Part shown: positions 2,887-26,370 of the stretch, in pieces
How the letters are laid out: every line of letters starts with the position of its first letter
Position numbering within the stretch: the first letter of the stretch is position 1
Notes under the pieces: model-generated
The model's database searches: none
Told to the model about the DNA's origin: nothing
Seen by the model: only the letters and a program-made list of their open reading frames with translations
Origin: Jacaranda mimosifolia
Lineage: Eukaryota > Streptophyta > Magnoliopsida > Lamiales > Bignoniaceae
Assembly (NCBI GenBank): GCA_018894105.1
Contig: CM032133.1
Coordinates: 8,632,501-8,696,500 of the forward strand
Length of the DNA stretch: 64,000 nt
Reading direction: 5' to 3'
Position numbers and translations under genes: made by a program

Positions 2887-3782
2887 TCGTGATATAAGGA
2901 AAATCTGATAGGTGTGATCTGTTTCGTATTCTGACTAAATTTTGATTGTTTATATTCCACTCACAGAGCAACAAGGATGTGAAAGTTTCTTGGTCTACAT
3001 CGGACTGTTGTCCAGGTCGGACGAGCCGTCTGCATTTCTTCCCAAACTGATTTGGTTGAGATGGACCATTCATCCCAAACTGATCCAATTGAGAAGATCC
3101 ATGGCCATTCGAGCCGACAGCCACAACTCCTAAGCTAGTTTTTACTGATAATCTTGGAATTTGAAAATATTTGTTTTGCCCGATTGTATTCTAATTGCCT
3201 AATCTGATATATTTATTTGTTTGTATTTGGACTACATGTAATCTGATCTATTTTATCTGATTGTATCCTGACTGTAATCACTTGATATGTTCTTGTTCTG
3301 ATTGTTAAATGTTAATCTGTTGAGTTGATTCTTCCACAACAGATCCCTACTGCTTACTATTACGATTATCCCTCACTAAGTTCTTTGGACTTACTCCCTC
3401 ATATTTCATTGATTCTCTCATACAAGAATAGGCGATGAAGATGAACTTTAGGCTTGGATTGAAGTATAGATGTTTTGTAATAGATTAGGTGTTTATATCT
3501 GTATGGGATCACTTGTATGTTAAAGTTTTAAACTTAGAGATATTGTGATATGTTAAATTTGATTTTAAGGTTTGTAGTATGTATGAAATGATGAATGATG
3601 GAATTTGTTGTGGCATGTAGATTATACTTTTGTTAAGGTTTGTTTAGGTGAAGCTCGTCGCTGCTCTCTGATAATTTTGGAAATATTTTCTGATGGGCCA
3701 ATTGTTTGAATTATCGGTTGAGATTTAAGTCTGAATTGAGTGGCGCCTCAGCTTAGATGCTATCCCCAGTGGGGGCGCTACA

Positions 3783-3869
3783 ATCAATCCCTCATAAGTT
3801 TCTTTTATAATTAGAATATAAAATTATAAATAATTAAATGGATACTTATTTTCAATCTCACATCATCAA
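3783..3869 (-). mobile_element. Helitron-like copy A, segment 2
   Basis: A short strip between F1 and R1 that aligns with about 14282-14378 of copy B (shared CTCATAAG followed by TTTTATAATTAG). It begins with the right copy of the F1 target duplication and ends at ATCAA immediately before R1. Confidence 0.6.
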
Positions 3870-6322
3870 TGTAGCACCCCCTCGGGATAATCCCTAAGCT
3901 AAGATACCACTCCAATTCAAACTTAAATCATAACGTACAATACATCCGGTAGGCCCACAAAATTCCAAAATTCACCAAGGACATCAACATGCTTCAACTT
4001 AAGCAGACTACCACAAAAGTACTATATGCATACCAAAAGTCATCCCATAACATTCAACATAATATATACATACCACATATCTTGATTTTAGCTTAACATA
4101 TCACAACATCTCTAAGTCATAATATAATGCCCCTGTGAACCCACAAACACATATAAACAACTAGTCTATTACAAAATGTTCACCAGTCCAAGCCTGAGGT
4201 CCGTGTCAGTCACCCAATCCTGTTTGGGAAAATAAAAAATAATACGGGAGGGTAAGTCCAAAGGACTTAGTGAGGGAAAATTTCAACAATAAATCAGGAG
4301 GGATCTTCCAAGAAAGAAACAACTCAACATATCATAAATTAATAGTCAGAACCTGAACATATCTGGATACAAGCATTAACAAGTTTAGCAAATAGAAATC
4401 TCTCCTTCCTTACTGCTCAATGATCAGATTACAAACAATTAGGATACAATCAAAGTAAAATAAACCCGAATAACATATGCATTCCAACAAATCATAATAC
4501 GACATGCATATCAGATTCTCTTTGTTCCAATCGATTAAACTTGCCCAAGCATGATAGCTTGGTAAGTGGACCGTTTAGCGTATTGCTGACACCCAAGCGG
4601 AACGCTTGATGTGTCCCATATATCCAAATATCCCATTAGGATTGGCACTTGGCCTAACAATATCCATACGTATATTAAGTGTCAATTAACATATTACCAA
4701 CAAGGCAAGACAATGTCCTCTAAACAGATTTAGATAAGCCAAAAAGACTGAACATGTGATAAGCAGAGCGAAATCAAGTTGATAAATATCAAACAAGACA
4801 AGGAAAGCTATAGGTGCAAAAACAGACGTGCTAAGCTCTCATCAGAGGCACAATCAATGAAACAACCCTCTTAGGGTATTCGCATCAATTAACGAATAAC
4901 AAACGAGATCTCAAGCAACTTACAAATTTCAATAACCAAGATGCAACAATAGTATTGAAACCAATTTAACCCTCTATTAATTAGAAAATGGGGTTTTTCC
5001 TTCTTTTTTCTTTTTTCTCTTTCTTTTTTTTTCCTCTTAGGAGTTGGGGGAGGGTGTTCTGAAGTGGGAAATTTTAAGTCAATGAGAGGCAAATGAATTA
5101 AGCAGGCAATACATTATTGACTATGGTGTTTTGAAATAATTAAAGTCAACTTCATTGCTTGGACTGTCATTTCAATGTTAGCAAGCACTTGCGAAAATAT
5201 TAATTTTCAAATTATACATAAATCACATCAAATAGGCTTTCTTTTAATCATGGGTTATCACAATGACATATAGGTGTAAGCAAGTGCCAAATTGGTAGAT
5301 CCTTACCTCAAAAGCCTTAGAAATGTAGTCACAGCCTATTGGTCCGTAGGATCCAGCTCTTCGTCACCTAACTAAAAGAATAGGTCTACTGTCAAAATCC
5401 TCTTTCGACCTTATAATCGTAATTATACAAATAACGGTCTAAAATCAATAATTATTGGCTAAATTGATAGTTAAGGGTTCAATCAATATTTTCGAGAGAG
5501 AAAATGCTAATTATGCTGGTCTTGATAAAGGGATACAATCATGTATTTAATCATCAAGTTAACCTTGCAACATTATTCCATGTCACTTATGTCTCAAATC
5601 TACAAAATTAGTGTTTAATCTTCCAATTAACTCAATTAACCCAAAATTATCATATAATAATGCAAATTTGGCTCTACTAGGTTATAAAAATACACATGCA
5701 TTGTCTATATTCGAATTCCCATATCAAATCCTTCATATATCTCAACAATATACAAGATTGGTAAGAAAATAAACGATAAGAAATATCAATCCCAACTCCA
5801 ATTATTGCCGAAAACATTCTAATCGAAACTCCAGAATCACAAACCAATGACACACACATGATCGTTGCAGTGAGGCAAAGAATCTACCTCAGCACCGTTG
5901 CTATGTTGCCGTCCGAAGCCATTGGAAATGGTTAACACCACCACCATGCGATGCATCTCAGCTCAACCAACAAAATACCCACATCAATTTCATGCTTTGC
6001 TGCCGGGAAGATCGTCAATTACAAATTTGAAGTTGCTGGGCCTTAACTCGCTGCTGTCGCTGATTTCTTTAATTCCACCACCACCGTTGAGACAAACCTC
6101 AATTGAAGGCCACCATGATGATCCTCGAGCTGAACTATACCAGAACTACCACCCAGGTTACAACTTTTCCCACCAGTGACATTGCGACCACTACCTTCGC
6201 CGTGGCCGAAGCTTTGAGCTCAAATTTCGGGCATTCCATTGGTTGGTTTTGGATGAAAAATGTGTCGATGTGTTCCTTACTCGACAGGAAGAGGTTAGTA
6301 TATAATGTTTTGGGTTTCATCA
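3870..6322 (-). mobile_element. Ty3/gypsy LTR R1, first part
   Basis: Reverse-oriented LTR whose 3' end reads TGTAGCACCCCC on the plus strand. It carries the palindrome at 4253-4269, a poly-pyrimidine run near 4990-5040, the junction motif CGTCACCTAA near 5364 and a GC-rich part from about 5860. It is interrupted at 6323 by F2 and resumes at 12341. Without the nested DNA, R1 is about 2.8 kb. Its flanks do not match: ATCAA on the left and ATAAT after 12697. The left GC-rich part yields short reading frames (for example 5898-6179) that have no conserved counterpart in the other LTRs. Confidence 0.8.
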
Positions 6323-7761
6323 TGGAACACCCTTAAAATTGGGTATTTGAGAAAATGACAATTCAGAGATCAAGATATTGGTTAGTTGGATTTTTAGGGC
6401 TCGAAAAATTAATAAAAAGGACTTAATTGCATGAAGATTGGAAGTTTTGGGGTCAATTTATAATTTGAAGCAATTTGATTGTACAACATTTTAAAAGCTT
6501 TGTGGGGCAAAAAAAGAATATTTTGGGTCAAATAGGTTAATGTTTGGCACTCAAGCTTTTGAAGGATTGAATTGAAGTGTTGGAGGGATTAATTATAAGT
6601 TGGAAGAAAGATTTGAGGGTTAAATTATAATTTTCAAAAATGGGATTATATATAGTATTTCCCCCATTTCTTCTTCATTTCTTCCCGCATGCACCATCCC
6701 CCGCCTTCACGGTTGACTTCTCCAGCGACGTCTTGAACTGACAAACTAAACCAACCATCCTCTCCATCTCTTCACGATGAACACGTCGGTACCAAGAACC
6801 TCCCAATTTGACCTTTGAAAAATAAAAAAATCAAAGCTTAAGGTAAGCTCATGGCAGTGGGTGGCAGACGTGGCGTCCGACGAATTCTGGGGCGGACCAA
6901 GGGAGGGTCTTGACAAGTTCAACTCGGTGAACAACATGGTGGCTTTGGATTTTAGTTTGGCGCAGCGGAGGATGAGGGATTAAGCAAAAAACCTCACGGC
7001 GGCGAGTGGTGGTGCCAGGTGATTGGAGCTACAATTGGCAATCTTCCCAGTGGCAAAATGTGAAATTGATTGGGGCGTTGGGTTGTTCTCACTGAAAGGC
7101 ATCGGTTGGTGGTGGTGGTGGTGGTGATGACTACTTTCGGCAAAGGCGGAGCTAAGATAGTAACTTCAGCTCGTCACGATGATTGTCGCTATGTTCTCGA
7201 TTTGTGATTTTGAAACTTCAGTAATCAAATCTTAGGTATAAGAGTTGGGATGAGATTATATATATACATATGTATTGTACCGCTTATCTAATAAATCTTC
7301 TATTATGTCAAGGAATGAGGATTTGAGATATGATTTGGATGAATACACAAAATGCATGGATATATACATGTGTCTAGTCGACCCGAATATATTATACTAT
7401 ATGGTAACTTGGATTAATTAAGTTTATTAAAGGATTTAAACCCTAATTTGAGGGATTTCATGAATTTGAGACCTAAGTGACGATAATTGGGTTAATTATG
7501 ATGCTTGGACTATTGTTATTGATTTGGGATAATGTTATGAGGATAATTATGTAATTAAGGACCATATTACATCCCATTGTTGGAACCAATACGAATCCTA
7601 AAACTACCGTATTAGCTGAGTAATTAGTGATTTTAAAATGCTAATGGTGTAATTATAAGTAATTGTAATTATTAAGGATATAGAGCTGAACGGGGATTTT
7701 AACCGTGAATATACTCTTTTGGTTAGGTGACGAAGAAGTGGGTCTTGTGGACCAGTAGATT
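6323..7761 (+). mobile_element. Ty3/gypsy solo LTR F2, first part
   Basis: The forward LTR starts TGGAACACCC, a one-base variant of the family start, inside R1. The left flank CATCA (6318-6322) and right flank CGTCG (12341-12345) differ only by two CG-to-CA changes, as expected from decay of methylated CpG in one TSD copy. A CT-rich leader follows a TATATA stretch near 6645-6660, then a GC-rich part at about 6690-7200. The LTR is interrupted after 7761 by R2 and resumes at 10737. Without R2 it is about 3.04 kb. Confidence 0.8.
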
Positions 7762-10736
7762 TGTAGCGCCCTACTCGAGATAGCACCTAAGCTGAGGCGC
7801 CACTCAGTTTGGACTTAAATTGAACCCACAATACAGACAATAGACGCATCAGAATTTTTTTTCTTTCAAAACTTATCAGAGAGCCACGAAGAGCTTCAAC
7901 CTAAACAAACCTTAACTGAAGTACAATTTACATGCCATAACAGATCCCATCATACATTGTTTCATGCATACTACAAACCTTAAGTTCAAATATGACATAT
8001 CACAATTTCTCTAAGTTTAAAACTTAACATACAAGTGATTCCATACACAAATATAAACACCTGATCTATTACAAAATATATATACTTCAATCCAAGCCTG
8101 AAGTTCATCTTCATCACCTATTCTTGTATGAGAAAATCAATGAAATATGGGGGGTAAGTCCAAAGAACTTAGTAAGGGATAATCGTAATAGTAAGCAATA
8201 TGGATCTATTGAGGAAGAATCAACTCAACAAATTAACATTAAACAATTAGAACAAGAGCATATCAAGTGATTACAGTCAGGATACAATCAGGCAAAACAG
8301 ATTAGATTACGGGCAATCAGGATATAGTCGAGCAATACAAACATTATCAAATTCCAAGATTATCAGTAGGAACTAGCTCAAGAGTTGTGGCTATCGGCTC
8401 AAATGGCCCGTGATTATCTCAACCGAATCAGTTTGAGATGAATGGTCTGTCTCAACCGAATCAGTTTGGGAGGAAATGCAGACGGCTTGTTCGACCTGGA
8501 CAACAACCCAATCTAAACCAAGAAACTATAGCATCCTTATTACTCCATGAGCGGAATTCAAACAATTAGAATACAGTCAGGAATCAGAGCAGAACACGCT
8601 TATTAGATTTTCCTTATATCACAAGTTCCGGGCTTATGACTTATCCCACGCACTTAGCAGGGATTAACATCCCATTATTTATCCAAGAGTATATGGCTTA
8701 CGTCTTATCCTATGCATACAATAGGGATTAACGTCTTGTTATTTAACCAAGAGCTTCGGGCTTATGGCTTATCCCATACACACATCAGGGATTCAGGTCC
8801 CATTACTTATTCAAGAATTCAGGGCTTACGGCTTATCCCACACACATAGCAGGGATTAGCATCCTATTTTCCCCTATAACAATCACAAACGATAACAGAT
8901 AACAGAACGGTCAGATAACAGATAGTTAGACAGCAGAATGAACGGATAAAAGACAATCAGATAACAGAATGGATGGATAATAGATGAGATGTTTTGGGCG
9001 ATACAGGTAACAGGTAAGAGTTCTGGGCGCCTAGAACATATAGGATTCAGAATCAATAACAAGCAATAACCCTCACAGGGGTTTATCATAATAATATATA
9101 GATACATTCAAATGCCAGATTGACAAACCTTCATAGGGGTACAATAAATATTGAATAAGAAGTACCCATCGGTAGACCCTCACAGGGGTACATGATAACA
9201 AATGAGATCTCAATCAATACATAGATTTCAGTAATCAAGACACAGTATAGTACAATACAGAAACAAGAACCATCACAGGGGTTTATCACAATAACATATA
9301 AGTACAAGAAGTGCCAGGTTGGCAGATCCTCACCTACGTAGTCTCAGAAAATGCAATCCACAATCAACAATTTACTAGTTAGTGAGACCACTTCTTTGTC
9401 ACCTAATTAAAAGAGTCAGTCCATATTCAAAATCCCCATTCAACTCTAATAACCTTTAATAATTAAAATCTTGCTATTAACAGTCCTAAAATCACTAGTT
9501 AATCAATCAACACGATAATTAGGGTTCAATCAGTATTATCGATGCGAAACATGCTAATTAAGTCGATTATTACAGAAATAGTTATGGGGTTTGCATCGGT
9601 TCTAGTAATAGGATGTAATCTAGTCCTTAATTATAACATTATCCGAAATCAACAATAGTAGTCCAGTCATCACAATTATCCTAATTATCGTCACTTAGGT
9701 CTCAAATTCATAAAATGCACAAGTTAGGGTTTAAATCCTTTAATAAACTTAATTAATCCAAGTTAGCATATAATATAACATATCCAGGTCCACTAAGCAT
9801 ATGTATATATATCCATGCATTGTGTATATTCATCCAAATCACATCTCAAATCCTCATTCCTTGACATAATACAAGATTTATTAGATAATTGGTACAATAC
9901 ACATGTATATATATTTTCATTCCAACTCTTATACCCAAGATTCGATTATCAAAGTTTCAAAATCATAAACCAAGAACACAGTCACGATCATCACGATGAG
10001 CTGAAGAAACTATCCCAGCTCTGCCGCTGCACTGCTGTGCACCATTGTCGAAAAAAAGCTAAAACTACCACCAAGTGATGCGTTTCAGCTAGAGCTATTC
10101 AACACCCTAATCAATTTCATGGTTCGCCATCAAGAAGGCCCTCAATTGGCCAGAAAAAACCACATCACCACCACTTCTGTCATCTCTATTTTCTCCAAAT
10201 TTCGTTGCCACTGGTGGTCCGTTCTGAAAGCTGAAGCTACTGGTGTGTTCCTTGAGCTGAAAGCTTCAAAACCATCGCCTAGAAACTGGTCTCCGCCGTT
10301 GCTCCATCATGGCCCGTCGCTGTTAAAGTCAAACATTAATACTCTGGTGGTCTACTGGGGAATGAGTGTGCATGTGGTATCAATATGTTGCTGAGGGAGA
10401 GAAGAAACTAATGATCGGTTTAGTGTGTGGGTTAGGGTGGTCGTCGGTGAAGATCGCCGGTGGGGTGATGGGTGGTGCTCGCGGGAGAAATAGAGAAAAA
10501 AGGAGGGTGAAATGTTTTGTATAAATATATTTTTGGGAATTAGAAATTGGTGCCCGTATCTTCTACCCAGCTTCTAATTGAGTCCTCCAAGATTTTGAGC
10601 CCCTTCAATTCAGCCTCTAAACTAAGTTAGTGCCTTAATTTCATCAATTTGACCCAAAATAATTCCATGCAAACCCCAAATATCTTGATTTTTAAACCCT
10701 TATTTTTTAAAATACTCAAATTTCAGGGGTGTTACA
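7762..10736 (-). mobile_element. Ty3/gypsy solo LTR R2
   Basis: A complete reverse-oriented solo LTR of 2975 bp, TGTAGCGCCC to GGGGTGTTACA as written on the plus strand. A perfect 5-bp TSD AGATT flanks it at 7757-7761 and 10737-10741. It lies inside F2, and the F2 sequence rejoins cleanly across the TSD (GACCAGTAGATT continues to GCTGATC). It carries a minisatellite at 8620-8866, the palindrome near 8156-8172 and the GC-rich segment at about 9990-10500. It is the youngest insertion in the A nest, because it interrupts F2, which interrupts R1. Confidence 0.9.
8620..8866 (-). repeat. LTR minisatellite in R2
   Basis: Four to five irregular units with the plus-strand core GGCTTATCCCACAC followed by an AGGGATTA-type core. 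They are the reverse complement of the units in F1, so F1 and R2 belong to one subfamily. Copy number and spacing differ between the two. Confidence 0.7.
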
Positions 10737-12340
10737 AGATTGCTGATCATTTTTTGAGGCTACAGAAGTGAAGGTCTGCCAATCTAGAACTTGAATACAT
10801 CTATCTATTATTGTGATAAACCCCTATGAGGGTTCCTATTTCTGTAATGTACTGAATCGTGTTTATTGAAAATTTTGAATTGTTCATAATTTTGCACATT
10901 ATCTTTTAACTGATTAAAATACCCTTGTGATGGTTATCTCTTAATATTGATTTTGAATTCTATCTGTTCTGGCACCTAGAACATCTTGTCTGTTAACTGT
11001 CCGTTTTGTTATCTAGTTGTCTTGTTATCCAATTGTTTTATATCTGACTGTCTTGTTATCCGATCGTTCTGTTATCTGACTATTTTGTTATCTGGATATA
11101 TATCGGGAAAATATGTATCGATTGATTGATATGTTATATGTATGGGGCTATGTTTGGGTCGAGTGCCAATCCCAATGAAATGCTCGGATATGTTAACGGT
11201 ACGTTCGTGGCTTTTCTATGGGTATCAGCGATATCGCTAGGGACATTTCCCCTGGGTATCAGCAATGAGCCAGGGGCTTTTCCCTCGGCATCTACACCTA
11301 GCGATGAGTCAGGGCCTTTTTCCTGGGTATCTACACTCAACGATGAGTTAGGAGCTTTTCCCTGCACATCTACACCCAGTGATAAGTCAAGAGCATTTCA
11401 TTGGATATCAGCAACCTACCGTGTACCAAGCTGTCATGCTTGGGCAAGTTTGACTGATTGGAATAAACAGAATCTGATATGTATGTTCTGTTCTGATTTG
11501 TTGGACTGTATATGTTACTCGGGTTTATTTTGTTCTGATTGTATTATGATTGTTTGTATTCCGCTCATGAAGCAACAATGATGGTGTGGTTTCTTATCTA
11601 GATTGGGTTGTTGTCCAGGTCGGATGAGTCGTCTGCATTTCCTCTCGAACTGATTCAGCTGAGACATACCATTCATTCTGAACTGATCTAGTTGAGACGA
11701 TCCCAATCCCTGCGAGCCGACAGTCACAACTCCCGAGCTGGTACCAACTAATAACTTTGAAATTTGTTAATGTCTGTGACTGTATCTTGGCTGCTTGTAA
11801 TCTGATATGTCTGTAATCCGATCCTAACTGTAATCTCTTATTATGTTCCTATTATGACTATTAATTGCTATTTTGTTGAGCTAATTTTTCCTCGGCAGAA
11901 CCCTATTGTTTAATATTAGAATTATCCCTCTCTAAGTCCTTTGGACTTAACCCCCCTGGTATTTCTTTGGCTTTCTCAGACAGGGTTAAGTGATGAGCTT
12001 GAACTACAGGCTTGGATTGGTGATCATATTTTGTAATAGAAAAATGTTTGTACATGCTTATGGGTACTCTTGGACATTTTGTATACCCTAGAGATGTTGT
12101 GATATGTTAGGCCTGAATTTAACATCTGCAGGGTGTATATATTATGTTGAATATTATGGGATTGGTTATCGTTTGTATATAGTACTTTTGTTGAGGATTG
12201 TTTAGGTTGAATCTCGTTGCTATCTCTGATAATTTTGAAAAAATTTCTGATGGGCCTAATGATTGTATTGTGGGTTAATATTTATGACTGAATTGGGTGG
12301 CATCCCGGCTTGTGCGCTATCCCGAGAAGGAGGTGCTACA
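10737..12340 (+). mobile_element. Ty3/gypsy solo LTR F2, second part
   Basis: Continuation of the LTR split by R2. It starts with the right TSD copy AGATT and ends GGAGGTGCTACA. It contains CCCTATGAGGGTT, a minisatellite at about 11190-11410, the palindrome near 11933-11949 and the family 3' end. The 151-codon frame at 11126-11581 runs through the minisatellite and is a product of repeat units whose length keeps the frame; no known domain is recognised. Confidence 0.8.
11190..11410 (+). repeat. LTR minisatellite in F2
   Basis: About six units of 30-36 bp based on CTGGGTATCAGCGATGAG and the variant ATCTACACCCAGTGAT. The unit is unrelated to the one in F1 and R2 although it sits in the same part of the LTR. 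Confidence 0.7.
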
Positions 12341-12697
12341 CGTCGTCGTCGTTGGGGGTTGACGGGGGTGCATGTGAGAATGAAGAAGAATCTGTAGTGG
12401 AAATGATATATATATATAGGACTATTTTCTGAAATTACAGATTGAACCCCAAAATTTCTTCTCAGCTTCCAATTTGGTCCTCCAAAAATTTAGCCATCTT
12501 TAATTCAGTTCCCCAACTTCCTTAGTGCCTCACATTGGCCCAGTTGACCCAAAATAATCTCACTTTGACCCACAAAACTTCCAAATGTTGGTCAATCAAG
12601 TTTTCCTCAAATTGCAATTTGACCCCAAAACTTCCAAAAATAAATAAATAATGTTAAGAAAATTCCCACCAATCATATAATTTCTAGGGGTGTTACA
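12341..12697 (-). mobile_element. Ty3/gypsy LTR R1, second part
   Basis: The 5'-terminal part of reverse LTR R1, resuming after F2 with CGTCG and ending AGGGGTGTTACA on the plus strand. It holds the region upstream of the TATA-like ATATATATATAG near 12400. After it the Helitron-like copy A resumes, but about 1.39 kb further along than where it left off. Confidence 0.8.
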
Positions 12698-13709
12698 ATA
12701 ATATTTTTAAATATTTCATAACATCACATTATTCATGGTTTATTACTCAAATATGAAGTGTATATATATATATATATATGTGTGTGTGTATTTATCTTGA
12801 TAATTTGAGAGATTTGCAACTAAAAAAATAGTAAAATAAAAATATTCATATCAAAGATAGATTCTTATATGACATACAAAAATAATTGAAAATAGTATTA
12901 AAAATAAATATATAAAATATAATTAATTGAAATAAATAAGTACTGCGTGTTGGTACTTTTAAGTAATATCAAAATTACAATACTAAGTTGGCCACAAGAA
13001 TTTTAATTTTAAATAAATATTGAGGAAATAATAAAGTAATAACCTTTATAAAATATTTAAATATATTAGAAAAGTATCTGATTAATTTAGAATAAAAGCA
13101 AAACAAAAACCAATATAATGATGTGTTTCAAAAAGATATTAAGCGTTTTTTGCGAAATGAATTTTAAATAATTAAAAAGAAGAAAGAAACATTATTATAT
13201 TATACTAATTGGGGAAAAAAGTCCTAGAATTGAAAATATAGAATCATGCTATGAATAATGTGGAAATAAAATGTAAAAAGAATAATTGTAGAATAACAAA
13301 ATTTATATATAAAATAAATAAAATATTTATCTATTAATCTTGTGATAAATTAAATTTATAAGATAGAATTTTGTGATAAGAGTACTTAATATGATGCTTA
13401 TAAAATATGTTTTAAATTATAAACTTATTTGGTGAGATAAAAATGTGATTATAGATATTTTTTGAATTATCTTATGAGATAGAAATTTATATTGCAATTT
13501 TGGATAAACACAACATGATTTTTTAATTATAATAGATGAGTTGATTGTATTAAAATGAAATATAAAAGTAAATAAACAATCAATGAAAAATTTTCAACTA
13601 AATTAAAAAGCTCAAAACTCTAAAAATTTGACATGTGGCCAAAGTTGTACAATTAGAATTAAAATTACACAATTACGGATTCCACACAGTTATGCTATAT
13701 ATAATAGTA
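12698..13709 (-). mobile_element. Helitron-like copy A, 5' part
   Basis: AT-rich DNA that aligns with 15772-16501 plus 26376-26628 of copy B. It contains the uninterrupted sequence of the site where B carries two gypsy elements (13448-13464). Its last bases, read on the minus strand, begin TACTATTATATATAGC, close to the 5' terminus of copies B and C, though the leading TC is not preserved at the junction with B. A (TA)n/(TG)n microsatellite lies at about 12764-12790. Nothing coding is seen. Confidence 0.55.
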
Positions 13710-16506
13710 CTAGCATGTACCCTATGCGATGCATTGAAAATAATTCTAAGATTGAAATAATTTATTTTATGATAATATTTATTTTTTTTCATATGATTAA
13801 AACATGAATTGTAATTATTTTTAGCATTTAACGAAAGAAAATTTATTACTAATTAAATAAAATAATATGAATATTTTGATTAATAATATTATGTTTGAAG
13901 ATAATTTATACTTAAATAAGTTGTATAATATCAAGAATTGCTAATTCTAAGTTTATAAATTATACAAAAATTTATAAAATGATAAAATTTAAAAAAATAA
14001 ATAAAAGAATTAAGAAAATAAAAATAGCACAAAATATTTTACTAAATACAGTTTTTAAGTTAGATGTATATATATATATATATTTATACATACATATTTT
14101 GATGTGATACATAAGCAAATATCTCTTAATATTCCATATAACTCCGATAAGTAAAATTTATATATTTTTATTTCTATATGCAGTTGTTTTATTATTTTTA
14201 AAATTATCAATTAACATATATTCTGTACATGAATAAAATAATAAGTAAATTTTTAATATTTAATTTAAAATAAAATGTCAAGTCTCATAAGTTGCTTTTA
14301 TAATTAGTATATAAAAATATATGAATAATTAAATGAATACTTATTTTCAGCCGATATTTTTCAATTTCACCTCATTAATCCATATAAAAATATTTTTATA
14401 AATTATTATAAGAAAAAATATTAAAATAAATGTATGCTCTATAATTATAAAATAGTGTAACTAAATATATTAAAAAAATATAAAAATTGATATAATTTGC
14501 TATTTAAGTGATCATTTATCAAGCTTTTGAAAATTTTCAATTATGACAACTATAAATTTATTTCAAATAATTAAAAATTATCTCTCCATTATTATACTGC
14601 TAAAAAATTAAAATGATTTAAATTAATAATCTAAAAATAAAGTAAAGGGTTTCCAATTCTATAGGAAGTAATGTTTATATTTGAAACAAATTCTTCAATG
14701 AAATTATTGTTATATTCTATATATATAATTTTACCTAAAAAATATTTTACAGATCTAAAAAATATTATTCTAAAAATAACAAAATTTTAAAGACTTTTAT
14801 AAATTAAGGACTGCATATCAATTAATTTATAATTATTTATTTCTCAAACTTCTAACTCTTTCAAAAAGAAGTGATGATTTGATGTTTTACATAAATATTT
14901 GTTTATCATATGCAACAAATAAAGTTGTACAAATAAGAAATTCACGAATTTAACAGATAATTATAATTGTTAAGTATTTTAATTTCACTTTTGAAGTATA
15001 TTTAATTATATAAAGATGCTATATATATATATATAAATCTTAAGTTGTCTAGAAAATAGTTATTTAATTAATAAAAATAATTTATTTGATCAAATGATAG
15101 AATATTTTTAATTTATTTAATAGTTTTTTTATTAGAAATAATTGAATATTGCATTACTTCAACTGAAAATAAAGTGATTATATCTATATAAATAAAAAAA
15201 ATTATTAAATAGGAAAAGTTGGTTATTGTTTTGTAATAACTTAGATGTCAACTCTTTTTTCGGATAAATTTTAAGCTATTTTGAACAAAAATATATAATT
15301 AAATTAAGAAAATCTAATTCTTTAATGAAAAAATAAGTTAAAATTTATTAGATCTCATATTTATTAGATAATTTCATTACTTTGTATATTCATTTAGTTT
15401 TTGATAGTTAATATTATCAAAGTGAATATAAATATATCAATTGTACTTTTGCTTAGCAATGAAAATTTGATTTTTAGCTACATATGCATGATTTTTTATA
15501 AATAATTTATTTATTGAAGAGAAATAAGATGATTTTCTTATAAAAAATATTACACGCAAGTAAAGATTGAACCAATCAAAATAAACTTATCAAACACATG
15601 ATATTATATACAAAAAATAAAAAAAAATTCTTTCTTATATTATATGCACATAATTAGAAATGGGTAAATAAATTGCTAATAAATTTTATAAATATTTTAT
15701 AGAAAAATATATAGTATTTCTTCATTCATTTGATAAGAAAATTGAAATAATTTCAACAACTTAATAAAAATATAATATTTTTAAATATTTCATAACATCA
15801 CATTATTTGAGGTACATTACTCAAATACGAAATATATATAATTGTTTTTATATAGATAAATCGAGAGAGCTGCAACTAAAATAATAGCAAAATAAAAATT
15901 TAATATTAAAGAAAAACTCTTATATGAGCATATAAAAAAAAATTGAAAATAGTATTGAAAATAAATACATAAAATATAATTAATTGAAATAAAAAAGTAC
16001 TGCATGTTGATACTTTTAAGTAATATAAAAATTACAATCCTAACTTGGCCATAAGAACTTTAATTTTAAATAAAAGTTGAGGAAATAATGAAGTAATAAT
16101 ATTGATAAAATATTCAAATATATTAGAAAAGTATCTGGTTAAATTAGAATAAACAAAACAAAAATAACATACAGATGTGTTTGAAAAAAAATATTAAAAA
16201 TTTTCTACAAAATAAACTTTAAATTAATTAAATATAAAAAACAAACATCATTATGTTGTGCTAATTGAGGAAAGAAGTCTACAGTTAAAAATATAGAATT
16301 GTACTACAGATAATGTAGAAATAAAGTGTAAAAAGAATAATTGTATAATAAAAATTTTTATATATAAAATAAATAAAATATTTATCTATTAATCTTATGA
16401 TGAATTAAATTTATAAGATATAATTTGTGATCAGAGTAATTAATATGATGCATATAAAACATCTTTTGAATTATAAGCTTGTTTAGTGAGATAAAAATAT
16501 GATTAT
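13710..16506 (-). mobile_element. Helitron-like copy B, 3' part
   Basis: The left end reads CTAG on the minus strand, preceded at a distance of 10 nt by a short hairpin ATGC-ATC-GCAT (13724-13734) and followed by T. This is the usual architecture of a Helitron 3' end: a CTRR terminus, a hairpin about 10-12 nt inside, and insertion between A and T. The rest is AT-rich and non-coding. It retains the 1393 bp (14379-15771) that copy A lacks. The segment ends with ATTAT (16502-16506), the left TSD of the gypsy element. The full unit, without nested DNA, would be about 3.06 kb. Confidence 0.6.
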
Positions 16507-19303
16507 TGTAACACCCCTAAAATTTGGCATTTTGAAAAATAAGGATTTATAAATCAGAATTGGATTTTAGGTCTCGCAAAATAAATAAAAAGGGCTTAAT
16601 TGCAAGAAAATGGAAAGTTTTGGGGTTAATTTGAAAGGTTGAGAAAACCTAATTGAGCAAACTTCTAAAGGTTTTGGGGTTGCATGGCAATTTTCAAGTC
16701 AACTGGGTCACAACCATATTTTAAATAATTAGCAGGACTCAATTGAATGAACTTATAAAGTTCTAGGGGTGAATTTAGAAATTAAAAAAAAGTCCCCTAC
16801 AAATATCACATTTTTACATTTCCAACCCATCCCTCATTCTCCTTCCATACAACCACTTTCTTCCCTCTCGCCGACGATTTCTTCTGGCGATCATTAATTC
16901 TCAAAACTAAGCTGATCATTTCCTTCCCCTCACTCCTAGCATTACACTGATACCTCATGTGCACACTTATCACCGGCGGACCACTAGAACCGTGAGGTTG
17001 AAATTCTACTGCGGCGGTGAATGACGGGCGACAATAGAGCAGTGGGTAAAACTCATTTCTAGGCGGCGGAAAGTGAAGCCCTCAACTCAGTGATCATCGT
17101 GGTACTCTCATTCGGAGGTTTGAAGTGGCGAGGGCGACAGAAATTGGAGGAACCAACGCGGCGGTGAGAGGTGGCGTTGAGATTTTGAGGTGTAAATTGA
17201 GGCCTATTTTGGTGCCAAAACCTAGAATTGATAAGGGAATCGCGTTCAAGAGGTTGAAAGGCATCTTTCGGTGGTGATTTTGGTATTTTCTAGCGGCGAT
17301 GGACGGCGACGGAGAGACATTATCATCTCATCAACGCGACGATCACAACCGTGTGCTAGGTTTTTGATTATGGAGCTTCTATAACTGGATCTTGGGTAAA
17401 AAGAAAAAAAGAAGGGTTATGCTTATATATGTGTGTAGATGCTCATGTTGTACATAATTTCCATAAGATATGTATCATGCCAAAGAGTGGAGAATGGACA
17501 TGTGATTGATATATATATATATATTTCCATGCAAGGATTATTATATAGTTTAGTGGGACCCGGATATGTCATATTATATTGTTAACTTGAATTGAATAAG
17601 TTTACTAAAGATTTAAGCTTTACTTGAGGATTATATGAATTAGAAACGTTAGCAGCGATAATTAGGTAAATTTATGATGATCGGACTCTTATTTTTGAGT
17701 TAGGATAACATTAGGGGGATGATTATGTGATTAAGGACTAGATCGCACCCTATTATTGGAACGATATATACGCTTGAGTCTATTTCCATTTTAATCGACT
17801 TAATTGGCACATTTCATATCAATAGTGTCGATTAAATCATTTATTATTGTACTGATTGACGAACTAGTGTTTTGGGACTGCTAATAGAATAATTGTATTT
17901 ATTTAAGGTCGAGTAAGATTGTGATTTTGGATATATTCTTTTGGCTAGGTGACGAAGAGATAGGTCCCATGGACCAATAGGCTGCTGACTGTGGTAACAC
18001 TTCTAAAACTATGGAGGTTAGGGTCTAAGCTCCTCGGTGTTTATTTTTGTATGCCCTGTGAGGGTCTGCCAACCTGGCATTGTTTATACCTATCTGTTCT
18101 TGTGGATTGACCTTGTGAGGGTTCAATATGATTGTGTTCTGTACATGCTCTTATTTATTGAAATTTGTAATTTGTTCAAAGTTTTGCTTGTTATTTGTTA
18201 ACTAATTGGTATACCTCTGTGCGGGTTGCTTGCTTGACTTGTTTCTAATACGAACTTAATATGTCTGTTCTTGCGCCCAGAACTCTCGTTGTCTGTTGGT
18301 ATTAATCCACTTGATTCGTACTATTCGCCATATGATTGGTCTTGTTGATCTATCTGAGTTTGATTGGTATGTTATTAATTCATTTTGTGAGCAATATGTT
18401 ATGTGCTACGTTGTTATGCCTGGGTAAGTTATGTACCAAGCTGGCATGCCTGGGTAAGATATGTACCAAGTCATGCTTGGGTAAGTTATGTACCAAGTTG
18501 TCACGCTTGGGTAAGTTTTGTACCAGATTATCACGCTTTGGTAAGTTAAGTACCACGTTGTCACTTTTGGTTAAGTTTAGTTCGATTTGTATGAGGTTAA
18601 GTTTTGTACCGGGTTGCCTCGCTTGGGTAAGTTTAGTTTGACTGGAATAAGATACATCTGTTGTATGTATCCATTATAACTTGTTGAATTACATCGATTG
18701 ATTTGATCTATTTTACTTGATTTATTCTTGATCATTCGATTATTTCTTAACTGTTTGATTGTTTCTTGACTATTCGATTGTTTCCTGATTGCTTGACTGT
18801 ATCCTGATATGTTTGCTTGATTGTTGATTTACGATCTGTTGAGTTGATTCTTCATCGACATATCCCTTTTTTTTTTTTTATGATTACAATTATCCCTTAC
18901 TAAGTCCTTTAGACTTACCCTCCTGTTTTATCTTTGATTCTCTCAAATAGGGATTAAGTGAAGAACTTGGACTCCAGGCCTGGGCATGAACATATTTTGT
19001 AATAGATCAGGTGTTTGAATGTATATATGGAATCATCTGAATGTTAAGCCTGGACTTGAGATGTTGTGACGTGTCATGTTGATGTTGATGACTTAAGGCA
19101 TGTGAGTGTTTTGTTAGATATAAAAAAGTGAATCATAGTATGTATCTAATATTTTGTCAAGGAATGTTTAAGTTGAAATCTGCAGCCGTTTCTGATAAGC
19201 TTGAAAAGTTTGTTATGGGCCTATTGATTTGTATTGTAGGTTCAATTTAAGGTTGAACTGAGTGGCGCCTCAGTTTAGGTGCTATCCCGAGTGGTGCATT
19301 ACA
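16507..19303 (+). repeat. 5' LTR of the complete gypsy element
   Basis: TGTAACACCCC to GTGCATTACA. Compared with the 3' LTR, the bodies agree at roughly nine bases in ten by eye, but the first 90-100 bp are clearly more divergent. The TATA box is changed to TACAAATA (16798-16805), while the 3' LTR keeps TATAAATA. This LTR has about 240 bp (near 18194-18436) that the 3' LTR lacks. Confidence 0.9.
18421..18640 (+). repeat. LTR minisatellite, GGGTAAGTTATGTACCAAG type
   Basis: Unit starts (TGGGTAAG or a variant) at 18421, 18451, 18478, 18508, 18538 and 18568 give 30-bp spacing with one 27-bp step, plus a degenerate unit near 18624. All steps are multiples of three, which accounts for the open frame at 18336-18641. 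The 3' LTR has fewer units (22665, 22692, 22722, 22752). Confidence 0.85.
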
Positions 19304-19307
19304 GAGG

Positions 19308-19320
19308 TAGTATCAGAGCC
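19308..19320 (+). other. Primer-binding site (initiator-Met tRNA)
   Basis: TAGTATCAGAGCC starts four bases after the 5' LTR and differs at one base from the usual TGGTATCAGAGCC, which is complementary to the 3' end of plant initiator-Met tRNA. The related minus-strand element has the unmutated form at 50496-50508. Confidence 0.85.
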
Positions 19321-19906
19321 TAGGTTTTGATGACCTAGGTGAACTTGGGAATGATTGTTGTGACTGACTCTTTATTTAGGTTAGTTTGAGTATGAATTTT
19401 AGGTATTTTGCGTATTGGGAGTTCTTGTGTGATTCGAGGATTTAAGATGAATTTGATCAGTTGACGTTAGGAAGATGAGTTTATGTACTGCAGGATGCTT
19501 ATAGGATATTGTCGTACACCGTAGAATGATTAAGACTTGTGTATCCTTAAGTTTGGTTTACTTCTATCTAATCCTTCTATTCCTTTTATTCTTGGAAGTT
19601 TAGAGGAGTTAGAGTTAATGGACTTACTTGAGATTACGCTTGAATTGGGAATCATTTAGAATGTAAGCACTTGAATTAAGGGATACTTAAGCTATGTAGG
19701 GATATGATTCTTGAAATGTGGATTTTGGGCAAGAATATATGAAGTTGGATTTTGGAGTTGAATGTGGAATTGAATAAAACATGAACTTTTACGATAAGGC
19801 TTGACATTAAGGAAGTGAAGAGTTATGACCAGGGCGACCAACCAGTGTATAACCTTTTACTTCTGGTATTTCAGGCATTTGAACATATAACTAAAGGAAA
19901 TGAACC
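19321..19906 (+). other. Gypsy leader, non-coding
   Basis: Untranslated leader between the primer-binding site and the first recognisable coding frame. Nothing further is recognised in it. Confidence 0.6.
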
Positions 19907-20137
19907 ATGGACGAGGATGGTATGGAAGATTTGAAGAACGAGAATAAGGTCAGGAAGGAGGAAAAGGAAAACCTTCTAAGATGGTGTCAAGGTCTTGAGA
20001 AGAAGCTGCATGATATGCATAAGGCCTTAAAGGATAGAAGAGTGGAGTCAAGTCATTTTAAATCAGTACTTGGGGTAAGGAACTTTATGCTAGACATATT
20101 AATGAAGAGTGTAGAAAAAGAGGAGATTAAATGTTAG
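19907..20137 (+). CDS. Coiled-coil leader ORF remnant of gypsy element
   Basis: A 76-codon frame starting with ATG in a CCATGG context. The product is very charged and heptad-like (LLRWCQGLEKKLHDMHKAL), with a predicted coiled coil at about residues 10-45. It is clearly related to the frame at 33009-33554 on the minus strand: LLR.CQ.LE.KL is shared, followed further on by a V(R/K)..FM..I.......E.E.I block. In that second element the frame lies upstream of a separate gag, so this is probably an extra leader ORF and not gag itself. Here it stops early at 20137 and then joins pol remnants across a deletion. Function unknown; it could also be an N-terminal gag extension. Confidence 0.55.
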   Translation: MDEDGMEDLKNENKVRKEEKENLLRWCQGLEKKLHDMHKALKDRRVESSHFKSVLGVRNFMLDILMKSVEKEEIKC

Positions 20138-20149
20138 GAGAAGCAAGGG

Positions 20150-20400
20150 TACTACCAGTTGAAGGCTAGAAAAGACTACGTAAAGCAATTAAGCATAGTT
20201 CTCGGAACCTTGAGGAACATCAGTTGTATGCAAAATATAGCAAGTGCAGACATTAAATAAAGAAGGTGGCTTTTCTTGGACATATCATACCCCAAGATGG
20301 GGCAGAGGTTGATCCCTTTAAGATAGAGACGGTAGTCAACGGGAAGAGACTAGACAATGTGATAGAAGTTTGTAGTTTTCTGTGTCTTGTCGGCTATTGA
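20150..20400 (+). pseudogene. Reverse transcriptase C-terminal remnant (gypsy pol)
   Basis: Conceptual translation gives blocks typical of the palm/thumb end of gypsy RT: a QL..VL.TLR..QLYAKYSKC block, then KVAFLGHIIPQDGAEVDP, then KRLDNV.EV.SFL.LVGY. The frame has a stop after SKC and other lesions. The catalytic YVDD part and everything upstream are absent. It directly follows the coiled-coil frame, showing that gag, protease and most of RT were removed by deletion. Confidence 0.75.
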
Positions 20401-20610
20401 TGAAGATTGTGAAGAACTTTTCTAATTGGCTTACGCGTTGACTAAATTAACTCAGAAAGGTCAACTATTTGACCAAAATAAGAATCTGAATACGAGACAT
20501 CGCTGATGGATGGAAATTCTAGAAGATTGCGATTTCTCCAATACCTATAACCCAAAAAGGTAAAGGTAGTAGCCAATGCCTTAAGCTAAAAGGCTGAGAT
20601 GGCTCACTTA
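20401..20610 (+). pseudogene. RNase H C-terminal remnant (gypsy pol)
   Basis: Short blocks TKLTQKGQLFDQ and, after a gap, RWMEILEDCDFSNTYNPKKV followed by KVVANALS. They match the start and the end of the gypsy RNase H domain; the middle, with its catalytic acidic residues, is deleted. A stop replaces the residue after ANALS. Confidence 0.7.
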
Positions 20611-20729
20611 CAAGAAGTAGAAGCATCAGGTATATATACATGGATAATGAAACAAAAAGAAAGATTGAAAGTTTTGGAAAGTCTGAGTTCAATACCAAAC
20701 TAAGGTATTCTTCTTTTCTGTAAGAAATA

Positions 20730-20935
20730 TGTGTGCCGGAAGAAGTAGAAGGGAGATTGTTAGATATGATACACAAGTCAAGATATATGATCCATCCAAA
20801 AGAGACGAAGATGTATCAGGACTTGAAGAAGCAATTCTGACAGAATTTAATGAAAAGAGAATGTAGATCGACTGACTGAATCTACTTATTTTCTGCCAGT
20901 CGGAACAGTTCTCAGATGAGAATCTGGGGACCAGA
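20730..20935 (+). pseudogene. Integrase N-terminal remnant (gypsy pol)
   Basis: The block VPEEVEGRLLDMIHKSRYMI, followed by HPKETKMYQDLKKQF, resembles the region around the H2C2 zinc-binding domain of gypsy integrase. It is followed by a stop, then DRLTESTYFLPV, the usual opening of the integrase core, then a jump to what looks like the pol 3' end (ENLGTRFF-like) just before the polypurine tract. The catalytic core is missing. Confidence 0.7.
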
Positions 20936-20942
20936 TTCTTTT

Positions 20943-20953
20943 AAGAGGGAAGG
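20943..20953 (+). other. Polypurine tract
   Basis: AAGAGGGAAGG lies two bases before the 3' LTR, the expected place for the plus-strand primer. Confidence 0.85.
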
Positions 20954-20955
20954 TC

Positions 20956-23446
20956 TGTAACACCCTTAAAATTCGATATTTAGAAAATAAGGATTTAGAA
21001 ATCAAGGTATTGGTTAACCGAATTTTAGGGCTCGAAAAAAAAATAAAAAAGACTTAACTACAAGAAAATGGAAAGTTTTGGGGTCAATTTGAAAGGTTGA
21101 GAAAACCTAATTAAGCAAACTTCTTAAGGTTTTTTGGTTGCATGGCAGTTCAACTGGGTCACAACCATATTTTAATTAATTAACATGACTCAATTGAATG
21201 AACTTATAAACTTCTAGGGGTCAATTTAGAAATTCAAAAAAAGTCCCTTATAAATATCACATTTTTACATTTCCACCCCATTTCTTTTTCTCTTTCCCTG
21301 CGGCCACCTTCTCTCATCTCACCGATAATTTCTTCTGATGATCATTAATTCCCAAAACCAAGCCGACCATCTTCTTTCCTCACTCCCAGCATCACACTGA
21401 TACCTCATGCACACACTTATCACCGGCGGACCACCGGAACCATGAGGTTGAAATTCTACCGCGGTGGTGAGTGACGGTCGACAGCGAAGCAGTGGGTAAA
21501 AGTCATTTCTGGGTGGCAAAAAGTGAAGCCCTCAGCTCAGTGATCACCGTGGTACTCTTATTTGGAGGTTTGAAGTGGATACGGCGACGAAAATTGGAAG
21601 GAACTGATGCGGAGGCGAGAAATGGTGTTGAGATGTCAAGGTGTAAATTGAGGGCTATTTTGATAACAAAACCTCAAATGGATAAGGGCATCGGGTTCAG
21701 GAGTTTGAAAGGCATCTTTCAGTGGTGATTTTGGTCTTTTTCGGTGGCAGTGGACGTAGGTGGTGCGGCAGCGGTGGAGAGATACTGTTATCTTCTCAAC
21801 GCAATTATCACAATCGTGTGCTCAATTTTTGATTTCGGAGGTTTTATAACTGGATCTTTGGTAAAAGGAAAAGAAGAAGGGTTATACTTATATATATGTG
21901 TATACGCTCATGTTGTACATTATTTCCATAAGATATGTATCATGCTAAAGAATGGAGAATGGACATGCAATTAATATATATATTTCCATGCAAGGATTAT
22001 TATATGGTTTCAGTGGGACTTGGATATGTCATATTATATTTTTAACTTGAATTGAATAAGTTTACTAAAGATTTAAGCTTTAATTGAGGGTTATGTGCAT
22101 TGAAAACCTTAGTAGCGACAATTGGGTAAATTTGTGATGATCAGACTCTTATTGTTGAGTTAAGATAACATGAGGGGGGTAATTATGTGATTAAGGACTA
22201 GATTGCACCCTATTATTGGAACGATATATATGCCTGAGACTATTTCCATTTTAATCAACTTAACTAGCACATTTTATATCGATAGTGCCGATTAAATCAT
22301 TAATTATCGTACTGATTAACAAACTAGTATTTTGGGACTGTTTATAGAATAATTATATTTATTTAAGGCTGAGTAAGATTGTGATCGTGTATATATTCCT
22401 TTGGCTAGGTGACGAAGAGGTGGGTCTCAAGGACCAATAGGCTGCTGACTGTGGTAGCACTTCTAAGACTAGGAGGTGAGGGTCTAACCTCTTGGGTGTT
22501 TATTTTTGTATGCCTTATGAGGGTCTGCCAACTTGGCATTGCTTATACCTATCTATTCTTGTGGATTGACCTTGTGAGGGTTTAATATGATTGTGTTCTG
22601 TACCTGTTCATGTTTATTGAAATCTGTAACTTGTTCAAAGTTTTGCTTGTTAAGCTGGCATGCTTGGGTAAGTTATGTACCAAGCCATGCTTGGGTAAGT
22701 TTTGTACCAGGTTGTCATGCTTGGGTAAGTTAAGTACCAGGTTGTCACTCTTGGGTAAGTTTAGTTCGATTTGTATAAAGTTAAGTTTTCGACTAGGCTA
22801 CCACACTTGGGTATGTTTAGTTTGACTAGAATAAGACACATCTGTTATACGTATCCGTTACGACCTGTTGAATTACATCGATTGATCAGATCTATTTTAC
22901 TTGATTGATTCCTAACTGTTCGATTGTTTCCTGACTACTTGACTGCATCTTGATATGTTCGCTTGATTATTAATTTACGATTTGTTGAGTTGAGTCTTCC
23001 TCGATAGATCCCTTTTTTCCTTATGATTACGATTATCCCTCACTAAGTCCTTTAGACTTACCCTTCCGTTTTATCTTTAATTCTCTCAGATAGGGATTAA
23101 GTGAAGAACTTGGACTCCATGCTTGGACATGAACATATTTTGAAATAGAACAGTTGTTTGAATGTATATATGGAATCATCTAAATGTTAAGCCTGGACTT
23201 GAGACGTTGTGATATGTCGTGTTGATGTTGATGACTTAAGGCATGTGAATGTTTTGTTAGATATAAGAAAGTGATTCATAGTAAGTATCTAATGTTTTAT
23301 GAATGAATGTTTAAGTTGAAATCCGCTACTATTTTTGATATGCTTGAAAAGTTTGTTATGGGCCTATTGATTTGTATTGTGGGTTCAATTTAAGATTGAA
23401 CTGAGTGGCGCCTCAACTTAGGTGCTATCCCTAGGGAAGTGTTACA
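20956..23446 (+). repeat. 3' LTR of the complete gypsy element
   Basis: TGTAACACCCTT to AAGTGTTACA, followed by the right TSD ATTAT. The TATA box is intact at 21249-21256. It has a deletion of about 240 bp relative to the 5' LTR, joining GTTTTGCTTGTT to AAGCTGGCATG at about 22652, and a shorter minisatellite (22665 to about 22818). The palindrome is at about 23045-23061. Confidence 0.9.
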
Positions 23447-23463
23447 ATTATAGATATTTTTTG
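23447..23463 (-). mobile_element. Helitron-like copy B, 17-bp strip
   Basis: The strip between the complete gypsy element and solo LTR F5. It equals 13448-13464 of copy A: ATTAT, AGATA, TT, TTTTG. Its first five bases are the TSD of the gypsy element and its last five the left TSD of F5. Confidence 0.8.
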
Positions 23464-26370
23464 TGTAACACCGCTAAAATTTAGTATTTCGAAAAATAAG
23501 AATTTAGAAATCAGGATTTTGATTGGTTGGATTTTAGGGCTTGGAAAATAAATAAAAGGACTTGATTGAAATTTTTTTAAAAGTTTTGGGGTTAAAGTGC
23601 AAATAAGCAAGATTTGATTGGACCACATTTTCAAAGTTTTGGGTTGCATGGCCAATAATTTGGGTTAAATGGGTCAATTTTAGGCACTCAACATTTGTGG
23701 GGCTCAATTGAAGAATTAGTAAACTTCGAAGGACTCAATTGTATGCTGGACAAAAGTTTTAAGAGCCAATTTAGAATTCCAAAAAACTTCCCTATAAATA
23801 TCATATTTTGCAATTTCACCCTCCATTGTTCCTTTCTTCTCCACCAAAACCACCGTAAACCCCTATCTGGCGAACTTCCTCCTCCGACGGCCAAAGTTCT
23901 AATCTTATCCATCCATTCTCTTCCTCTCATCACGGCGAGCACGCTGGCGCCAAGAACAACCCATTTGACCAAAGAAACGATCAGAAACTGAGGTTCGATG
24001 AGAGCTCACGGTGGAGTTGATGGTTTCTACTTTCCAGCAATGCTTGGAGGTGGATCAATGGCTTTTCTTGATGGGCTCAGCTCGATGAACGAGTTGATGG
24101 GGGTCAATTGTGTGAATTGGTGACTGGCGAAGCCGAATCGGACGTGGTGGCTTCCAACAGCATTGAGCAAACTAGCGACTTTGAGATAAAAATTGGCTGT
24201 CTTCCTGGTGTCGTTTGGCAAAATTGATCGGAGCATTGTATTCCTGGAGCTGAGTATAGTATTTTGGTGGTGATTTTGCATATTTCTGACGGCAGCAATG
24301 ACGTGATGGCGGAGCATAGGCAAAAACTTCTCCTCATCGCGATAGTTGTGATGGTACCCTTTGCTAGTGGTTTCGAGGTTTCGATAGTCAAATCGGGGGT
24401 AAAAGCGTTGGATGATGCTTATATATATGCATATGTTGTATTACAATTCCTTAAACCTTGTATAATGAGGATTATATATGGTTGATTTATATCTATTCCC
24501 ATGCATGGATTAAGACATCGCATAATGGGCCTGGATTATGTAACAGTGGATGATAAGTAAAGATTAATTGAGTTAATTAAGATTAATTTATGGTTTTATA
24601 AAATTGGAACTCAAGAATTGATAATTGGGTGATATGAGATGATATGAGACTAGGACTTGGTATATGCATGTGCATGTATAAGTTTGGTAAACTTGAATTG
24701 TATTATTTTATGAAATGTTGGGAATTATCGAGCTAATTAGAAGAGAAAATCCTAATTTGTGAATTTGGAACCTACGTGAAAAGAATTGGGATAATTAGAT
24801 AAATAGGGTTGTTATTGTTGAGTTGAGACCCTGATACGAGATTAATTAGGTAGTTACTAATTTTAGACTAGTAATAATAAGATTGTTATTATTGAAGGTT
24901 ATCGAGGTCGAATAAGAATTTGATTGTGAATTTATTCCTTTGGTTAGGTGATGAAGGAATAGGTACCGCAGACCAGTAGACTGCTGATTGAGATTGCAGT
25001 TTTCTAAGACTACGGATGTGAGGGTCTAACCTCCTCGGTGTTTATTTTTGTATGCCCTATGAGGTTCTGCCAATCTGGTATTGTCTCTTATCTATCTGTT
25101 ATTGTGATAGACCCCTGTGAGGGTTTCTTGTTTCTGTTTTGTACTTGCTCTTGATATTGAAATCGTACTTGCATGAGTACATATACTTATTATTGGAATT
25201 GTACTCGCTTGTGATTTTGTTTGTTATCTGGTAATTGACATGTATACCCCTGTGAGGGTTATTTCTTGATTGCAATCTGGTATGAGTTTGTTCTTGTTTG
25301 TTCTGGCGCCTAGAACTTCCGTTTGTTAATTATTGATGTCTTGTTATCTATTTGTCCTATATCTTTTACTATTCCATCATGCTAATCCCAGCTGTTGAGC
25401 TTGGGATGAGCTGTTATGTTGATCCCAGATGTTAAGCTTGGGACGAGCCGTTATGTTGATTGACTGACTGACTAACTAACTAATTGATTGACTGATTGAT
25501 TGTCTAATTGATTGATTGACTGACTGACTGATTGGTTGGTGCAAAGAGAATCTGATATGCCTGTCATGTTTTGATTCGTTGGACGACATATGATATTTGG
25601 GTTTATTTTGTTTCGACTGTTCCCCGATTGTTTGTGTCCTGCTCGTGGAGCAATAAGAATGGTGTAGCTTCTTTGTTTAGGTTGGATTGTTGTTCGAGCT
25701 GAATGAGCCGTCTGCATTTCCTCATGAACTGTGATCGATTGAGGTGGACCATTCCTCCTGAGCAGAATCGGTTGAGATGATACTGGGCCTTTCGAGCTGA
25801 CAGTCATAACATCGATCTATTACCTACCTGAAGTTTTGAATTTGATAATGCTTGTTTACTGAACTTGTTATTACCTATTTTCTTCATACATTTCTGTATT
25901 GTATGTTATTTGACAATCTATTGAGTTGATTCTTCCTCAACAGATCCCTACTACTTATTATTATGAATATCCTTCACTAAGTCTATTGGACTTAAACCCC
26001 AATTTCATTAGTTTTCTCAGACAGGAATAGGTGGTGAATTGGAACTTCAGGCTTGGATCGGCGATCACATTTTGTAATAGAGAAATGTTTGTATATGCTT
26101 ATGGGTACTCTCGGACATTTTGTATTTTTTAGGAATATTATGATATGTCAGGTTTGCACTTAAGCTTCGCAACATGTTTGAACAATGAATGAAGGGATCT
26201 GTTATGGCAGGTAATTTGTACTTTTGTTAAAGTTGTTTAAGATGAAATCCACTGCTATTTCTGATAAGTTTGAAAGGTTTGTTATGGGCCTATTGATTAT
26301 TTATGGTTCAATTTAAGATTGAGCTGAGTGGCACCTCGGCTTAGGTGCTATCTCAAGTAGAGGCGCTACA
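23464..26370 (+). mobile_element. Ty3/gypsy solo LTR F5
   Basis: Solo LTR of 2907 bp, TGTAACACCGC to GGCGCTACA, with a perfect TSD TTTTG (23459-23463 and 26371-26375). It has a TATA box at 23793-23800, a CT-rich leader and a GC-rich part at about 23820-24400. A weak tandem repeat lies at 25375-25460 (CCCAGCTGTTGAGCTTGGGA type), with a GACT/GATT microsatellite to about 25535. The palindrome is at 25978-25994. Frames such as 23695-23991 and 24027-24323 lie in the GC-rich part and are not shared with other LTRs. Confidence 0.9.

Follow-up and report, generated by a model that had tools for sequence, protein, structure and literature searches.

Three abutting LTR insertions among nine in four copies of an AT-rich Helitron-like element

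LTR retrotransposons nested in other repeats

The nesting of LTR elements in plants is non-random according to a survey of 12 plant genomes, in which, in the sections drawn on here, Ty3/gypsy elements are often found at preferred positions, the 5-bp duplications have AT-rich centres, and predicted nucleosome occupancy is higher at insertions (PMC6911290). The same sections report a weak overall effect of palindromes (p 0.61 for Tekay) and 26 near-identical nested pairs whose insertion points were always at least 50 bp apart (PMC6911290). The case described here, found in a window of 64,000 nt (the whole stretch of Jacaranda mimosifolia DNA that was analysed), is similar in that putative Ty3/gypsy elements lie inside other transposable elements and are flanked by 5-bp target site duplications (TSDs) with AT-rich centres. 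It differs in that the hosts in those sections of the survey are LTR elements, with the insertion points of near-identical nested pairs at least 50 bp apart, whereas here the host is a Helitron-like element and three targets fall within 17 bp (PMC6911290). A further comparison is offered by Beon1, a Galadriel chromovirus at one position of the 18S rDNA in Beta; its authors suggest, in the part of the paper cited here, that one integration in an ancestor was propagated along with the rDNA (PMC3605345). In both cases, inserts recur at the same place within a multicopy host; Beon1, however, is one family at one position, whereas here three diverged LTRs occupy three abutting positions. In the part of the open-access literature that was covered, we came across no paper describing a hotspot for LTRs within a Helitron.

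The inserts are most readily compared with Bongo1-3 of Beta vulgaris, Tekay/Del elements with LTRs of 2,561-2,743 bp (not counting those with insertions or deletions), with which, as far as the cited part of the paper describes them, they share long LTRs, 5-bp TSDs, a tRNA-Met-type primer site and a purine tract (PMC3605345). The primer site lies 4 nt from the LTR here versus up to 3 in the Beta Tekay elements of that description, and our two-LTR element, unlike Bongo1-3, is without gag-pol domains (PMC3605345). The likeness to Tekay is one of description, not of sequence. Similarly, the host recalls DHH_Mothra, a non-autonomous rice Helitron which, in the part of its description used here, has a 5' TC, a 3' CTAG, a hairpin upstream of the 3' end and low GC; the hairpin stem of our host is just 4 bp, unlike that of DHH_Mothra, and this likeness too is drawn from the description and not from sequence (PMC4683698).

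Four copies of an AT-rich host with Helitron-like ends

Four copies (A, B, C and D) of one AT-rich element are present in the window. Stripped of its inserts, copy B measures 3,062 bp with 16.8% GC, i.e., the element is about 3.06 kb long and 83% AT. Helitrons typically carry a G/C-rich hairpin some 10-12 bp before the 3' end. By its ends the host looks like a Helitron: the 5' end of copy C reads ATA followed by TCTATATTATTATATATAGC, and that of copy B, with one TSD copy removed, reads TCTATACTATT, so that both begin with TC, while the sole 3' end identified in the window is CTAG at 13710-13713, which conforms to CTRR. It belongs to copy B, where the minus strand shows the stem ATGC-ATC-GCAT, ten bases, CTAG and then T. 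This stem, read by eye in one copy, is weak, with 4 bp in place of the G/C-rich 15-20 bp expected. Copy B splits the 5' end of copy A (TCTA^TACTATT): the TCTA of A precedes the 5' TC of B and the TACTATT of A comes after the CTAG of B, which amounts to an insertion between A and T without duplication, as expected of a Helitron. Copy A is therefore older than copy B. The nesting can be read at 13695-13760, 26600-26630 and 29325-29345, with the two copies head to tail. An alternative reading as a tandem macrosatellite, raised by the A and B repeat spacing of 3,057 bp, was dropped given the nesting between A and T and the TC and CTAG ends.

Copy A is on the minus strand and consists of a 5' part (12698-13709) and a 3' part (1-723 and 3783-3869) that is split by a solo LTR. 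Copy B, also minus, extends over 13710-26630, which without inserts leaves 13710-16506, 23452-23463 and 26376-26630. Copy C lies on the plus strand at 29556-30772, is empty at the insertion site discussed below, and ends at a break near 30772, where an internal pol fragment is joined to it. Copy D, plus strand, comprises 59227-60349 and 63032-63166, being split by a solo LTR and cut at 63167 by a further LTR; the stretch 63032-63166 was also considered as a separate Helitron copy, which was rejected, as it continues copy D beyond the solo LTR. The sequence adjoining the broken end of copy C (30773-31400) is a gypsy-type pol fragment; its protease piece, an RVP_2 match at 30884-31129, belongs to this fragment and not to the two-LTR element in copy B. 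The window provides a readable example of Helitron-in-Helitron nesting and of LTR recombination apparently removing host sequence.

Nine LTR insertion events, three of them at abutting targets

The empty site is preserved in copy A as ATTAT-AGATA-TT-TTTTG at 13448-13464 (plus strand), about 255-270 bp from the Helitron 5' end, and copy C is likewise uninterrupted at 29804-29821, where it is 1 bp longer than A. In copy B, a perfect ATTAT duplication (16502-16506 and 23447-23451) surrounds the two-LTR element J4 (16507-23446, plus strand), and a perfect TTTTG duplication (23459-23463 and 26371-26375) surrounds the solo LTR J5 (F5; 23464-26370, plus strand), the two targets being 12 bp apart. In copy D, read on the minus strand, the LTR J7 (R8; 58292-59226) starts at 59226 directly after AGATA (59227-59231, TATCT on the plus strand). 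The empty sites, the two perfect duplications and the AGATA junction agree base by base with what the earlier note had described, and the three insertions share one orientation relative to the Helitron. That note also held that J7 had lost its left half, which is probably not so: from 53881 to about 55650 the minus strand holds collinear LTR sequence, which plus-strand LTR sequence up to 58291 separates from J7 and which is probably the rest of this LTR. The flank at the distal end of this sequence is TTGAT, not TATCT, and the AGATA target is therefore, as the note had it, still deduced from a single flank. A search of 53000-53880 with the first 255 bp of the Helitron 5' end (E limit 1) gave just weak matches with at most 68 aligned positions and no convincing Helitron.

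The LTR termini in the four Helitron copies represent nine events (J1-J9). The account of the earlier note omitted the six that lie outside the cluster, at 12697, 3870, 724-3782, 26631-29324, 60350-63031 and 63167. J1 is an LTR start at 12697 flanked by ATAAT, and J2 an LTR end at 3870 flanked by ATCAA. J3 is the solo LTR within the 3' part of copy A (724-3782, flanks CTCAA/ATCAA), J6 a minus-strand solo LTR at the 5' end of copy B (26631-29324, flanks AGCTA/AGATA), and J8 the solo LTR in copy D (60350-63031, flanks ATAAC/ATAAT, the same host pentamer), whereas J9 is the LTR end at 63167 that cuts copy D. Two flanks are available for five of the nine events, perfect in J4 and J5 and with four of five bases equal in J3, J6 and J8; J1, J2, J7 and J9 have one flank each. 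Relative to the Helitron, J3, J4, J5, J7, J8 and J9 (6/9) run one way and J1, J2 and J6 the opposite way. The break of copy C at 30772 was left out of the count, as it involves an internal pol fragment and not an LTR terminus, and permissive +1/-1 BLAST matches, mostly AT-rich noise, were excluded as well.

One minus-strand LTR (3870-12697) has J1 and J2 as its ends, and its flanks (ATAAT/ATCAA) map to places in the Helitron about 1.4 kb from each other. Such mismatched flanks would be explained if the LTRs of two insertions had recombined into a hybrid and the Helitron stretch between them had been lost, and for this reason J1 and J2 were counted as two events. Further LTRs are nested in this putative hybrid on the plus strand (6325-12340) and on the minus strand (7762-10736). 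The flanks of the nested plus-strand LTR are CATCA (6320-6324) and CGTCG (12341-12345), a difference as expected from CpG deamination in one TSD copy.

All readable LTR starts (J1, J3, J4 twice, J5, J6, J7 and J8) are TGTAACA and all LTR ends are ACA; the LTRs are 2,491-3,059 bp long where both ends are known, and TG...CA termini are combined with 5-bp TSDs in the five events with two flanks. A single family is conventionally defined by at least 80% identity. Over the first ~330 bp, the 5' LTR of J4 is 0.78 identical to J5 and 0.73 to J7, its 3' LTR 0.73-0.74 and 0.68, respectively, and J5 is 0.70 identical to J7, so that at 0.68-0.78 the clustered LTRs fall below this limit, whereas the two LTRs of J4 are 0.90 identical to each other over the same stretch. 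The clustered LTRs are hence diverged lineages rather than one recent family; of the three events of one family proposed in the earlier note, the independence is supported and the common family is not. Compared in full (16507-19303 and 20956-23446), the LTRs of J4 show 87.6% identity over 2,465 aligned positions (K2P 0.138), and J4 is therefore old. Its 1,652-bp interior carries GTATCAGAGCC four bases after the 5' LTR (after 19303) and the purine tract AAGAGGGAAGG before the 3' LTR (before 20956), a combination with long LTRs as expected of Tekay/Del elements. We take GTATCAGAGCC, one base off the motif TGGTATCAGAGC, to resemble a tRNA-Met primer site. None of the three open pieces in the interior (19304-20955) that reach 75 aa or more matched a family above the cut-off (best Cnn_1N, 18.1 bits vs 28.5); reverse transcriptase, integrase and chromodomain were not found in these pieces, and the solo LTRs carry none. 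With the clade-defining domains absent, the resemblance to Tekay/Del-type Ty3/gypsy elements is a likeness and not an assignment, and the LTRs fit such an origin and do not prove it.

Chance, a mild hotspot or guided integration

We hypothesize that Tekay/Del-like Ty3/gypsy retrotransposons inserted repeatedly into an old AT-rich Helitron and into one another, and that most inserts have since become solo LTRs, presumably by LTR-LTR recombination. Ordinary nested insertion in AT-rich DNA is, in our judgement, the probable explanation of the locus, and the presence of three of at least nine insertions in four copies within 17 bp would then most likely be due to chance, with at most a mild taste of the integrase for AT-rich, flexible DNA. 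Perfect or near-perfect 5-bp duplications in 5/9 events speak for it, as do the scatter of the other six events along the Helitron, the two of four copies that are empty at the site, and a symmetry and hairpin strength at the targets that are not significantly unusual overall. Against it, the cluster is nominally rare even when AT content is weighted, its three insertions agree in orientation relative to the Helitron (as 6/9 of all events do), ATTAT/ATAAT recurs as the target pentamer of J1, J4 and J8 (3/9; P 0.0009 for this pentamer and 0.026 for any), and the site is one of 11 Helitron inverted repeats, a second of which J1 hits at its centre, the last two leads having been found after the fact. 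When nine targets were placed at random on 3,062 bp, three starts within 12 bp were obtained in 0.40% of trials (uniform, P 0.004), the AT-weighted P was 0.0043-0.0072 (with a 2- to 16-fold weight on local AT, or 2- to 10-fold on all-AT targets), the range for 7 to 12 events was 0.0017-0.0105, and 0.26-0.28% resulted if J1 and J2 were one event (n=8); all these values overstate the evidence because the pattern was picked out post hoc from 64 kb. In favour of ordinary nesting, the P of the cluster is no more extreme than 0.002-0.01 even before a correction for this choice, and two of nine events fell within 12 bp of each other in 26% of trials. The clustering beyond chance proposed in the earlier note is thus weakly supported, and suggestive only. 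It could also be imagined that one ancestral insertion was copied by segmental duplication and that B and D are not independent, since an LTR starts in both copies in the same orientation within 5 bp. We give this next to no credence and have rejected it: the junctions in B and D differ by one 5-bp register, J4 and J7 are 0.68-0.73 identical versus 0.90 within J4, and Helitron D, which shares 81.8% and 78.2% with B over two stretches, is no nearer to it than to C (84.6%) or A (81.8%). With two perfect duplications and a third event in another register, the three insertions are independent. Other explanations invoke the target itself.

The most substantial of these, which we nevertheless consider rather unlikely, is a mild local hotspot about 255-270 bp from the Helitron 5' end, where integration would be raised several-fold for Tekay-like integrases generally; as its cause, DNA shape (the AAAAATAT-8 bp-ATATTTTT inverted repeat and A/T tracts) or a positioned nucleosome may be envisaged with the same reserve. 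Apart from the nominal P of 0.004-0.007, it draws on the use of the site by diverged LTRs and on the inverted repeat AAAAATAT-GATTATAG-ATATTTTT, which copies B and C carry intact and copy A with one mismatch, its left half being seen in D. Moreover, J1, when placed using the sequence of copy B, strikes the exact centre of a similar inverted repeat, TAAAAATAT-A-ATATTTTTA, a lead found after the fact. The nesting preferences, the AT-rich duplication centres and the higher predicted nucleosome occupancy at insertions published in the sections of the survey drawn on here point the same way (PMC6911290). However, the site repeat is one of 11 inverted repeats in the Helitron (arms of at least 8 bp, loops of up to 12), nine of which have no insertion here, and although such repeats span 8.1% of positions and hold 4/8 scored events, they hold just 2/6 places (P ~0.08, binomial by hand on places). 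Symmetry around the nine targets was not significantly raised (P 0.35, 0.20 and 0.10 for 7, 10 and 12 flanking positions), the folding energies of 60-nt DNA at the eight scored sites, including the clustered one, were in the ordinary range with none extreme, and the lack of a palindrome effect for Tekay (p 0.61) and the spacing of the 26 nested pairs (at least 50 bp) in those sections of the survey also argue against a hotspot (PMC6911290). The narrower proposition that AAAAATAT-GATTATAG-ATATTTTT itself is an integration hotspot common to several diverged Tekay-like lineages, acting through DNA shape, a bound protein or a nucleosome and not through lineage-specific guidance, is in our view more doubtful still. 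Guided integration, with an integrase or tethering factor that recognises the Helitron sequence, would follow the model of the Ty3 and Tf1 integrases, which are tethered by host factors. Three insertions in 17 bp with a common orientation would suit it, but the registers and targets differ, the LTRs are diverged, the site is empty in two of the four copies, 6/9 events lie elsewhere, and the three scanned open pieces of J4 yielded neither integrase nor chromodomain; it is very improbable. The strong target preference or guided integrase suggested in the earlier note is thus not upheld: with no significant symmetry at the targets and no evidence of a guided integrase, the cluster is a lead for genome-wide testing, and ordinary nesting is retained as the preferred reading.

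A striking local cluster loses weight once the remaining insertions in its host are taken into account. If the hotspot were true, it would provide a concrete sequence for asking what plant Ty3/gypsy integrases recognise below the chromatin level. The perfect AT palindrome TAAAAATAT-A-ATATTTTTA lies at 15766-15782 in copy B, and the LTR junction of copy A at 12697 is at its centre. Elsewhere in the window, open pieces occur at 47166-48673, two of which (47601-48038 and 48042-48446) were scanned and resembled DUF659 and hAT-like RNase H families just weakly, below the cut-off. A copia-type element occupies 35622-45788; its repeats (35622-37178 and 43413-45048) are 83% identical, and gag-type (below the cut-off), zinc-knuckle and Pol_BBD matches lie between them.
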